NCBI GenBank assembly: GCA_020629335.1
Contig: JAHDDN010000125.1
Span: forward strand, 1-12,449
Direction: 5' to 3'
DNA from: Chitinophagales bacterium
GTDB lineage: Bacteria; Bacteroidota; Bacteroidia; Chitinophagales; UBA2359
Length of the DNA stretch: 12,449 bases
The notes below the pieces were generated by a model. That model did not search any database. It saw only the letters and a list, made by a program, of their open reading frames with translations, and was not told the origin of the DNA. Shown one piece after another: positions 4,672 through 7,905 of this stretch. Position 1 is the stretch's first letter. Every line of letters starts with the position of its first letter. The position numbers were made by a program, and so were the translations under genes.

Positions 4672-4710
4672 TTCATACAAAAGCATAAATATAATGAATA
4701 TTAGGTAATT

Positions 4711-4870
4711 AGGAACGTTTAAAAAATAATTTCCACATTTAGCAACTAATCTTTTGTACCAATACTTCGTTGAAAAGCCTTGCCGATGCGCTGCATCGCC
4801 TGCATTTTTCGCCTTGTCTTGATACAAAATATTTAGCTGCAAATGCCAATCTTATTTTTTAAACGTTCCT
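4711..4870. repeat. 160-bp imperfect palindromic element with perfect 19-bp ends (MITE-like)
   Basis: Positions 4711-4729 are an exact reverse complement of 4852-4870 (19 bp, starting AGGAACGTTT). The interior continues as an imperfect inverted repeat at roughly 65% by hand alignment. It meets at a near-palindrome, CGATGC-GC-TGCATCG, around 4784-4798. The whole unit could fold as one long hairpin on either strand. It encodes no plausible protein and shows no convincing target-site duplication. This architecture is typical of miniature inverted-repeat elements or REP/BIME-like palindromes moved in trans. It sits just upstream of the T9SS gene promoter and next to another repeat family. Confidence 0.75.
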
Positions 4871-4890
4871 TAGTAAGATTTATAATTATT

Positions 4891-5120
4891 TTTTGGGCGC
4901 AACCAAGCCTCGCAATCCTCAATATTAATCATATTCTAAGCGCTCAATCAAAAATCAACAAATCAAGCAATCAACAAGTGGCTTGGTCGGGCTGTCCACT
5001 CTTATGTGGCTATGCGGCTCCTACTCTGCTAAGTGCTGCTTGTCTCTTATTGGAGCCTGCGCATCACTAAGCGCCGTAAGTCGCAGCATGGACGCCACAT
5101 ACCGTTTCCATCCCTTGCGC
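4891..5120 (+). repeat. Structured repeat, copy 1 (GGGCGCA ... CCCTTGCGC element)
   Basis: This copy matches the reverse complement of 5714-5941 in conserved blocks: TTTTTTGGGCGCA at the start, TCGGGCT(A/G)TCC, TTATGTGGCTATG, GCCACATACCG and ATCCCTTGCGC at the end. Complementary segments give a three-stem fold. P1 pairs GCGCA (4897-4901) with TGCGC (5116-5120). P2 pairs CCAAGCC (4903-4909) with GGCTTGG (4980-4986). P3 pairs TATGTGGC (5003-5010) with GCCACATA (5094-5101). It has no coding potential beyond chance ORFs. I believe similar intergenic elements are common in Bacteroidota genomes but cannot name a described family. It could be an RNA (3'-end element or small RNA) or a DNA mobile repeat. 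Confidence 0.75.
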
Positions 5121-5153
5121 GGAAATTAGCGCATAGTTCATAGCGATGAGCGC

Positions 5154-5234
5154 TTAGTTTTGAAAATTAAAATCATCAAATTCATCCTTAGACAGGAAAT
5201 CCATTAAAAAGCCTGATATTCTTCCTATTTTCAT
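5154..5234 (-). CDS. Possible 26-aa ORF overlapping the zinc-ribbon gene stop (ATGA)
   Basis: On minus, the TGA of the upstream zinc-ribbon gene overlaps an ATG, opening a 26-codon frame that ends in TAA at 5154. The product begins MKIGRISGF and ends in an acidic-aromatic tail (DEFDDFNFQN). The ATGA junction is the usual arrangement for translational coupling. Alternatively, the short run is the true C-terminal tail of the 114-aa protein, separated from it by a frameshift near the A-rich stretch 5233-5240. No family is recognised, and a chance ORF of this length is quite possible. Confidence 0.25.
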   Translation of the reverse strand: MKIGRISGFLMDFLSKDEFDDFNFQN

Positions 5235-5575
5235 TTATTATATATTGTGATTATTAAAAAAGGAATACCTACGCACATACCCAGTACTTCTAAAAGCGCT
5301 AAATCAGACCCCAATTCATTACGCCAATAAGTAATAAAAATATAGTAAACTGCTATGCTTGATATTATCAAGGCTAAAAGATAGATTAATAAGATTAAAA
5401 TTTTAGATTCTTTGGCTTGAACAGAATTTGGATGAACTGTGTTTTTTTCATGGCACTGGCCACAGGCTATGTTTACACCTTGAGGATATCTAATTTTTAA
5501 AGCTAGCCTATCTTTAGCTCTATACTTAAATCGATTTTCGTTAAGACAATATTCACATTTATAATATAGCTTCAT
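5231..5575 (-). CDS. Small zinc-ribbon membrane protein, function unknown
   Basis: This is a 114-aa protein. Two CxxC knuckles (CEYC at residues 7-10, CGQC at 38-41) form a likely zinc ribbon in the first 45 residues. Two hydrophobic helices follow, at about 58-80 and 93-111, leaving a short charged loop between them. The zinc ribbon therefore probably faces the cytoplasm. I recall unnamed short Bacteroidota proteins with this zinc ribbon plus membrane layout but cannot assign a role. It is isolated between two inverted copies of a structured repeat. Its start overlaps a 25-codon frame upstream, and its stop overlaps another short frame downstream. The ATG at 5575 has no Shine-Dalgarno, as expected in this phylum; a candidate promoter lies at 5658-5688. 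Confidence 0.7.
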   Translation of the reverse strand: MKLYYKCEYCLNENRFKYRAKDRLALKIRYPQGVNIACGQCHEKNTVHPNSVQAKESKILILLIYLLALIISSIAVYYIFITYWRNELGSDLALLEVLGMCVGIPFLIITIYNK

Positions 5576-5636
5576 TTCGATTGGGGATTTCGCCAGCCTG
5601 GATGGTGTTTCTGCAAGTGCATTTTAATTTTGGCAT
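5559..5636 (-). pseudogene. Possible N-terminal stub of another zinc-ribbon gene (25 codons)
   Basis: On minus, an ATG at 5636 opens 25 codons beginning MPKLKCTC, with GEIPNRNE near residues 15-22. It ends at a TAA inside the neighbouring zinc-ribbon gene, 17 nt past that gene's start and in a different frame. The CxC near the start followed by a GEIPNxNE motif resembles the beginning of a family of small Bacteroidota zinc-binding proteins that I recall only from memory. Here the rest is missing, so it reads as a decayed or truncated copy, or as a short leader frame for the downstream gene. Both could be true. Confidence 0.3.
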
Positions 5637-5657
5637 TGTAAAGTATTTTCTCTTTTG

Positions 5658-5688
5658 CAATTATACAACATTTACTCAAGTATCTCAA
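5658..5688 (-). promoter_or_regulatory. Candidate promoter for the zinc-ribbon gene
   Basis: On minus, TTG (5686-5688) is followed after 20 nt by TATAATTG (5658-5665), one mismatch from TAnnTTTG. A 6-bp dyad with a 4-nt loop (5678-5683 / 5688-5693) overlaps the -33 side and could be an operator or simply AT-rich symmetry. The position fits transcription of both the 25-codon frame and the 114-aa gene. Confidence 0.35.
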
Positions 5689-5713
5689 TACTTTATACCC
5701 AATACCAATAAAT

Positions 5714-5941
5714 GCGCAAGGGATAGTAGCGGTATGTGGCGGCCATGTGCTGACTTATGGAGCTTAGGTAGCTGCAGGCTGGCCCTGAAAGGGCAGACAA
5801 GGATGCCTTAGCGGAATAGGAAGTACATAGCCACATAATAGCGGATAGCCCGACCCTTCCTGATTTTTTATTCGAGGGCGCACACATAGGTAGCGCCCCT
5901 ACAGGTCGAATAAAAAATCAGGAAGGGATGCGCCCAAAAAA
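5714..5941 (-). repeat. Structured repeat, copy 2, with 22-bp perfect hairpin arm
   Basis: This is the second, inverted copy of the element at 4891-5120. P1 pairs 5929-5933 with 5714-5718, and P3 pairs 5830-5837 with 5733-5740, both with the same sequence as copy 1. P2 sits in the same place but has a different sequence: a perfect 22-bp inverted repeat (5854-5875 / 5906-5927) capped by a second stem, GGGCGC (5876-5881) / GCGCCC (5893-5898). An inner hairpin GCCCT-GAA-AGGGC lies near 5782-5794. The element starts 9 nt after the stop of the metallophosphoesterase gene and in the same sense, so it would form that transcript's 3' end. The strong stem is not followed by a U-tract, so it is not a textbook intrinsic terminator. 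Confidence 0.75.
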
Positions 5942-7194: not shown

Positions 7195-7348
7195 TGTTTT
7201 TGTGGCTATTTTTGTTATTATGGTGTAATTAAATGGCGTATTAGCGTATATACAACAACACTTATTTGGGACTTTTGTTAAATTTGTTGTAACTATTTGC
7301 TTATGCAATAACGTTGGATGTAAGTATAAGGTTTTGTGAATAACTGTA

Positions 7349-7372
7349 TTAACTGAATAACTGGCAAACCGA
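7349..7372 (+). repeat. Left inverted repeat of the four-helix-bundle cassette
   Basis: This 24-nt sequence of taactg-type units pairs with 7906-7929, with three mismatches. It lies within a longer run of taactg repeats covering 7338-7386. Confidence 0.6.
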
Positions 7373-7459
7373 ATAACTGATAAGCTAAATATTTTTTTTG
7401 TGATTTTTTATGGAATTTACTTCATGTTGTACTCATATAAGTAAACAAACTATAAAATC

Positions 7460-7837
7460 ATGAAAAAATATTTTAAAAACACAGGAGATCCTTTAAGTGA
7501 TAAGACTTTTAATTTTGCACTTAGAGTTATCCGTTTGTTTAAGTTCTTGCAGCAAGAGAAAAAGGAGTACATCATCAGTAAACAAGTTTTACGCTCTGGA
7601 ACGGCTCCTGGAGCTATGGTAAGAGAGGCTAAAAATGCACAATCTGGAAAAGATTTTATTCATAAGCTCTATATAGCTCAAAAAGAAGCTGCAGAAACTC
7701 AATATTGGTTAGAGTTATTGTTTGCCTCTGGTTATATGGAAAATAATATTTATAAATCACTCAATCAAGATATCATTGAAGTAATGAGAATAATTGGGAG
7801 CTGTATTAGAACTGCTAAACGAAATAACTATAATTAA
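7460..7837 (+). CDS. Four-helix-bundle protein (23S rRNA IVS-type, TIGR02436-like)
   Basis: A 125-aa, almost wholly helical protein. It shows the family signatures: SKQVLRSGTAPGAMVREA (about 40-57), in the place of the usual Q-x-x-R-S-x-x-S-x-x-x-N-x-x-E-A pattern, and IAQKEAAETQYWLELL (about 72-87). Family length is normally about 115-130 aa, so the gene is full length. The family was first seen as ORFs in intervening sequences of 23S rRNA genes and is now known as free-standing genes; one relative forms a pentameric four-helix bundle, but no biochemical role is established. The gene is flanked by inverted taactg-type repeats and sits alone between two unrelated host genes. The ATG at 7460 has no Shine-Dalgarno, and no good promoter match is seen. 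Confidence 0.93.
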   Translation: MKKYFKNTGDPLSDKTFNFALRVIRLFKFLQQEKKEYIISKQVLRSGTAPGAMVREAKNAQSGKDFIHKLYIAQKEAAETQYWLELLFASGYMENNIYKSLNQDIIEVMRIIGSCIRTAKRNNYN

Positions 7838-7872
7838 CTAAAAAACTGATTAACTGAACAACTGATTAATGA
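7834..7872 (+). repeat. taactg-type direct repeats after the four-helix-bundle gene
   Basis: Starting within the stop codon region, the sequence carries several loosely spaced copies of (t/a)aact(g/a) separated by 2-5 nt, in the same orientation as the run at 7338-7386. The two runs bracket the gene. Confidence 0.5.
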
Positions 7873-7905
7873 AAAGCGTGAATACTTAGATAATATTAAT
7901 ATTTA

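Follow-up and report, generated by a model that had tools for sequence, protein, structure and literature searches.

Evidence for two diverged copies of an extended Flavo-1-like repeat in a Chitinophagales contig

The window, by which we mean the whole 12,449-nt stretch of Chitinophagales DNA analysed here, contains two inverted copies of a structured element that flank a small open reading frame and lie beside a metallophosphoesterase gene. Both copies sit where the original prediction had placed them, at 4891-5120 and 5714-5941: the inverted-arm listing pairs 5054-5120 with 5714-5780 (67 nt, 78% identity) and 4985-5045 with 5795-5855 (61 nt, 79% identity), and the outer inverted arms of the two copies are 20 nt long and 90% identical. 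The strands assigned to them, plus for the first and minus for the second, are not supported; the sense is probably the opposite one, minus for copy 1 (5120..4895) and plus for copy 2 (5714..5935). When reverse-complemented, the blocks GGGCGCA, TCGGGCT and ATCCCTTGCGC named in that prediction correspond to the 3′ end, the P2/P3 junction and the 5′ end, respectively. The parts of the two copies are as follows.

4895..5120, minus: copy 1, entire extended Flavo-1-like element, 226 nt, running from 5120 to 4895
5714..5935, plus: copy 2, entire extended Flavo-1-like element, 222 nt
5116..5120, minus: copy 1, 5′ strand of P1, GCGCA; partner TGCGC at 4897-4901; P1 covaries across relatives
5714..5718, plus: copy 2, 5′ strand of P1, GCGCA; partner TGCGC at 5929-5933; P1 covaries across relatives
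4988..5114, minus: copy 1, P2 arm; core GGGATGGAAACGG ... AGTGGACAGCCCG, with a long inner arm
5720..5852, plus: copy 2, P2 arm; core GGGATAGTAGCGG ... AGCGGATAGCCCG, with a long inner arm
4902..4987, minus: copy 1, P3 arm, 86 nt; 7-bp stem CCAAGCC/GGCTTGG with a loop of ~70 nt
5853..5928, plus: copy 2, P3 arm, 76 nt; perfect 22-bp stem 5854-5875/5906-5927
4889..4894, minus: copy 1, A run (T run on the plus strand) directly after the CC end
5936..5941, plus: copy 2, A run directly after the CC end

Each copy is laid out as a three-way junction of P1, P2 and P3 (the stem that had been numbered P2 in the original prediction), followed by CC and an A run. The order of parts is the same in both: P1 GCGCA, a single A, GGGATNGNANCGG, a long inner arm, AGNGGANAGCCCG, the P3 opening ACC, TGCGC, CC and six As. 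The P2 arm is framed by GGGATNGNANCGG...AGNGGANAGCCC and encloses the inner arm, which measures 103 and 109 nt in the two copies. The block patterns GCGCAAGGGATNGNANCGG and AGNGGANAGCCCGACC, derived from the copies themselves, each match twice in the window, once per copy, and never in 200 shuffles.

The neighbouring metallophosphoesterase (PF00149) has one relative at 91% identity followed by others at ~50%, and those with a name come mostly from Saprospiraceae, Pontibacter and other Bacteroidota, so that, by the relatives of this protein, the host would be a member of Bacteroidota, as for Flavo-1, and probably of Saprospirales. The frame between the copies (5231-5575, minus) would encode 114 aa and shows, by eye, CxxC pairs and hydrophobic stretches. 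Further downstream, a gene for a 23S rRNA-intervening sequence family protein (PF05635; 7460-7837, plus) adjoins an M1 peptidase gene.

Searches with the window element as DNA returned matches of only 22-36 nt, confined to 2 of the 100 genomes searched from the family of G005, and a short match in one of 13 relatives; outside the window, no long inner arm of this type was found in the genomes searched, and a first exact pattern had no match in the genome contig collection. A core pattern drawn from the 22-36-nt matches occurred 162 times, in 27 of 298 genomes, and its reversed form 12 times (hand sums); some single matches, such as L098, L107 and L108, lack the rest of the element. The highest count per genome was 91 matches to the 5′ core in G026, where the 3′-core pattern, which differs in strictness, matched 66 times; these counts gave a rough reason for setting aside 5′ truncation as a sign of reverse transcription. 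G026 also supplies 86 copies, about half, of the 166-copy set referred to below.

The element is mostly intergenic and occurs in all gene orientations. Among 77 copies, 23 read in the same direction as the genes on either side and 18 in the direction opposite to both; divergent genes flank 13 and convergent genes 10, and for 13 a gene was lacking on one side. Simple frame calling placed 6 of the 77 over a frame longer than 150 aa. Twenty-five stretches of viral contigs (L454-L478) match a short-arm pattern, and all but L478 were confirmed at 41.2 to 68.8 bits by R1, a covariance model trained on short copies alone, all from a family other than that of the Flavo-1 loci described below. The same model found two weak matches (27.0 and 25.6 bits) among 80 phosphoesterase loci, and one short-armed copy used as a query had no match in the plasmid and phage collections.

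A consensus fold of the two window copies contains 63 pairs, with P1 identical in both and with ten pairs of P2 and the inner arm changed on both sides and none broken. Being predicted from the same two sequences, this fold leans towards itself, and the independent evidence therefore has to come from relatives, through a landmark test of P1 and an alignment of 23 copies. The claim that one stem changes in sequence and still pairs is upheld, that stem being P3, with 7 bp in copy 1 and a perfect 22 bp in copy 2; the double changes in P2 and the inner arm show that compensation reaches beyond the single stem first named.

When the P1 partner was set by position only, 57 of 72 copies paired at all five positions and comprised 15 different P1 sequences, six copies without the landmark having been set aside. 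Counted as distinct P1 combinations, 15 of 28 pair fully, whereas 5000 shuffles gave 1.35 on average and 7 at most. For other copy sets, including the 166-copy set, P1 pairing had been one of the grounds for acceptance; their P1 counts are therefore no proof, and the landmark-only test is the fair one. Within the P2 core, the pair formed by N in GGGATN/GGAN is A-T in 140, C-G in 12, G-C in 9 and A-A in 4 of 165 copies, and the two window copies differ at this pair by compensation. In the alignment of short relatives (24 of 39 listed copies, reduced to 23 by dropping L095 as misaligned), 98.3% of 344 cells pair. The covariation score of these 23 copies is 0.264 against 0.079 in shuffles, a control inflated by kinship (0 of 500 reach the score), and against at most 0.033 with slid partners, a control that preserves kinship. 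The original reading of maintained pairing as covariation, and of the fold as selected, is thus strengthened by the two copies, P1, the P2 core and the 23 relatives, and selection on the fold is supported across P1 and P2.

Mismatches provide some indication of which strand folds. Isolated arm mismatches read on the sense strand are G-T in 43 and A-C in 15 cases (nominal p 0.0003), a count in which the G026 copies are not independent; the corresponding numbers are 13 versus 10 outside G026, 15 versus 12 in an earlier, smaller set, 3 versus 5 in P1 and 12 versus 0 at two P2 core pairs of 165 related copies. Taken together, these counts favour the sense strand as the folding strand only weakly.

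The original prediction could not link the element to a named RNA family and suggested a comparison with Flavo-1; this proved to be the right comparison, as the element has the P2 core of Rfam Flavo-1 (RF01705) and shares its full architecture with eight Flavo-1 loci that score over the cut-off. The Flavo-1 core helix GAUNGNAGCGG / AGCGGANAGC and its internal loops are present in both window copies, in copy 1 in the compensated form AACGG / AGTGG. The Rfam model scores 22.1 bits (E 0.77) on copy 1 (minus strand, 4981-5128) and 21.5 bits (E 1.1) on copy 2 (plus strand, 5693-5859), below the gathering cut-off of 42 bits, as do the short-armed relatives, which reach up to 32.2 bits. Among ten related short-armed loci, five carry a Flavo-1 match at the element and on the same strand (29-32 bits, E 0.003-0.02), and the other five have none at E 0.1. 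Scores in the twenties carry no weight alone because a 26-bit match in G005 lacks the element core; a low-score scan likewise found 0 of 13 genomes over the cut-off, with 5 of 14 control genomes also matching at E<=1. The window copies are therefore best described as an extended, long-armed Flavo-1-like variant and not as members of the family.

Of 198 genomes of the class, 49 have Flavo-1 matches over the cut-off, the highest count per genome being at least 22. Thirty such loci were scanned, and eight of the ten listed carry the full P1-P2-P3-CC element, for example GCGTGAGGGATAGAAGCGG...AGCGGATAGCCCGACC..GGGCACGCCCAAAT. The other two of the ten represent a second subtype in which P2 is closed by other pairs and P3 is absent; the P1, P3 and CC-A end is not universal in Flavo-1. 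R1, built without these loci, finds 15 of the 30 at E<1e-6. On the window it matches only part of copy 2 (13.8 bits) and nothing in copy 1, as expected from the lengths of the inner arm (103 and 109 nt) and of P3 (86 and 76 nt) in the two copies. Because the full element is found at Flavo-1 loci over the cut-off, the 76 positions of the Rfam model would cover one arm of a larger structure, which suggests that Rfam Flavo-1 describes only one arm of a three-armed element. Flavo-1 and the present element have in common the P2 core, down to its internal loops and pairs, a Bacteroidota host and many copies per genome; they differ in that the Rfam model comprises 76 nt of one arm without P1, P3 and the CC-A end, whereas the window copies are long-armed and score 22 bits. 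Taken together, the two window elements are, we are confident, full-length, diverged copies of an extended Flavo-1-like dispersed intergenic repeat of Bacteroidota.

The P2 core was already catalogued with Flavo-1 in 2010 (PMC2864571), and the catalogue entry appears to end at one arm of the full element with P1, P3 and the CC-A end. Passages naming Flavo-1 in the open-licence literature (PMC2864571, PMC9723704) do not describe P1, P3 or a repeat nature, and a study of F. psychrophilum states that Flavo-1 matches gave no real clue to function (PMC9723704).

A difference of P3 arms between near-identical cores lay beyond the reach of the two window copies alone and was seen in G026. Copies matching one query copy there are mostly 78-97% identical to it, and nearly all matches stop at query positions 133-141 of 183, the start of P3, with one reaching 180 (best 40 of 194 candidates). 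Among 99 pairs of G026 copies with cores >=95% identical, pairs that share copies and are not independent, 80 have dissimilar and 2 have identical P3 arms under a coarse typing that places 11-nt arms in the 'long' class and takes a string ratio <0.7 as dissimilar. Coarse types of inner arm, P3 and 5′ flank showed no significant association over 78 copies (permutation p 0.067, 0.685 and 0.19), which is compatible with arm shuffling and no proof of it at this sample size. Heptamer arrays stand before 25 of 76 copies in G026 and after 0 of 84, compared with 1 of 78 and 3 of 80 in other genomes, and a few 5′-truncated copies have such arrays at the junction.

One orthologous site was compared among nine relatives of G366. 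The element is present in G366, G503, G505, G501 and G498, and in G504 it is present with an insertion. G499 and G502 showed no element although both flanks align, and none was seen in the G506 stretch, of which only one flank aligned. The copies of G366 and G503 share the core and carry unrelated inner arms. This pattern suggests that arms change at a fixed site and that the element is gained or lost among relatives; it may also reflect independent insertion at one site, and retention of the element in several relatives can alternatively mean a conserved function.

Two observations concern inserts and flanks. Seven G026 copies (L132, L313, L325, L328, L337, L343 and L356) have a similar insert (CTTGACTGAATGGTGC...), ~130-150 nt long where readable, at the same point of the inner arm, and in four G292 copies (L134, L137, L138 and L140) the 100 nt upstream share another repeat that ends at P1. 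No gene was noticed inside an arm among the copies listed.

The explanation that we judge probable overall is that of a dispersed, structure-selected, extended Flavo-1-like repeat that acts as a folded single strand and whose arms are exchanged. For its mode of action we can offer only a tentative proposal. The element would work as a folded single strand, with a putative trans-acting factor binding P1 and the P2 core. Such binding would place the core and the pairing under selection and leave the arm sequence free, and the conserved cores could let copies recombine so that arms are swapped. Copies would spread rarely, as a non-autonomous REP-like repeat, and then persist for long. By extension, Flavo-1 might conceivably be not a small RNA and instead a single arm of a repeat that is modular, selected for its structure and either mobile or recombining, in which arms and 5′ flanking arrays are exchanged at the cores and only the fold is inherited; we put this forward as a possibility that we would not yet back. 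With its ends defined, a closing helix that covaries and a second arm that is freely replaced, the whole element offers a precise target for studies of binding, deletion and transcription. The variation of P3 among copies that are otherwise nearly identical is, as a pattern of repeat evolution, both unusual and open to testing.

Alternatively, the copies could be redundant genes of a trans-acting sRNA or processed non-coding RNA family whose three-way-junction transcript binds a protein, an explanation that we regard as rather unlikely. Covariation and purine-rich internal loops of the RNA kind agree with it, as do the copy kept at an orthologous site and the excess of G-T over A-C on the sense strand, the latter carried by one genome, G026 (13 versus 10 elsewhere and 3 versus 5 in P1). 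We take the y/n columns of the Flavo-1 row in the catalogue to stand for RNA, cis-regulatory and switch. In Weinberg et al. the entries of that row are y, n, n, Bacteroidetes and RF01705 (PMC2864571), which favours an RNA gene, and Rfam types the family as Gene; sRNA (RF01705). A uniform transcript is, however, difficult to reconcile with F. psychrophilum, in which Flavo-1 matches lie indistinctly in sense or antisense of transcribed regions and many fall outside them (PMC9723704), nor would it be expected of an element with no orientation preference over 77 copies, ~90 copies in one genome and P3 arms that are replaced at will.

The prediction had also considered a 3′-end RNA element, here a bidirectional, terminator-like structure that protects mRNA ends or stops transcription and whose copies arise by ordinary repeat turnover. 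Where a gene on the opposite strand faces the 3′ end of the element, its stop codon is a median of 24 nt away (31 copies, hand count), the end of copy 2 is 14 nt from the phosphoesterase frame, and several G292 copies have an A-rich 5′ flank, equivalent to a T run after the fold in antisense. This flank is not general, however, the sense-strand fold is followed by an A run and not a T run, and gene orientation lends no support, all four orientations being common among the 77 copies (23/18/13/10); we consider this explanation improbable.

Still more doubtful is the DNA-hairpin alternative, a non-autonomous ssDNA element moved by a Y1 (HUH) transposase in the manner of REP/RAYT or IS200/IS605 derivatives. 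REP/BIME sequences are short, dispersed, palindromic and intergenic, with many copies and no target duplication, and elements of the REP/RAYT and IS200/IS605 type have a GTAG or CGTC tag at one hairpin foot. The present element resembles REP/BIME in all the former respects, and its hairpin architecture, dispersed and mostly intergenic copies and lack of target-site duplication would suit such a mover. The last was sought over 288 k-mer/offset settings in 152 copies, where none was found; the largest excess, for 3-mers, was 12 of 152, with shuffles averaging 3.5. Yet none of 30 Y1 loci carries the element within ~1.5 kb, three having isolated half-motif matches, and PF01797 occurs in 9 of 13 element-bearing versus 11 of 13 other genomes and had no match in the draft genomes G026 (66 core-pattern matches) and G096 (10), so RAYT/Y1 is not supported as the mobiliser and no mobilising enzyme was found among the Y1 loci or through PF01797 in element-bearing genomes. 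Nor is there a replication-strand bias in G494, where 30 Flavo-1 matches divide 15 to 15 between leading and lagging strands; with the origin and terminus, inferred from the GC skew of 20 slices, shifted by 0.1 Mb, the split is 14 versus 16 and 12 versus 18. The element further differs from REP/BIME in its larger three-way-junction fold and in pairing that covaries in place of fixed palindromes. With MITEs it shares a non-coding nature, dispersal and short terminal complementarity (P1), and it differs from them by having no target-site duplication signal or visible parental transposon and an internal fold kept by covariation. A composite transposon made up of the two copies and the frame between them gets no support, because the protein database search matched the 114-aa frame only to itself and no Pfam family was assigned to it.

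Other repeats accompany the copies in the window. An inverted repeat with arms at 4706-4740 and 4841-4875, built around GGAACGTTTAAAAAATAA, encloses ~100 nt and adjoins copy 1; it looks like a separate MITE-like element, and no second copy was present in the loci compared. Degenerate tandem arrays of 7-8 bases (ATTAACTG-like) occupy 7340-7400 and 7830-7875, and the P3 loop of copy 1 (~4930-4980) contains, by eye, a degenerate TTGATT-like tandem array. These window arrays are of a similar type to the heptamer arrays found ahead of elements in G026.
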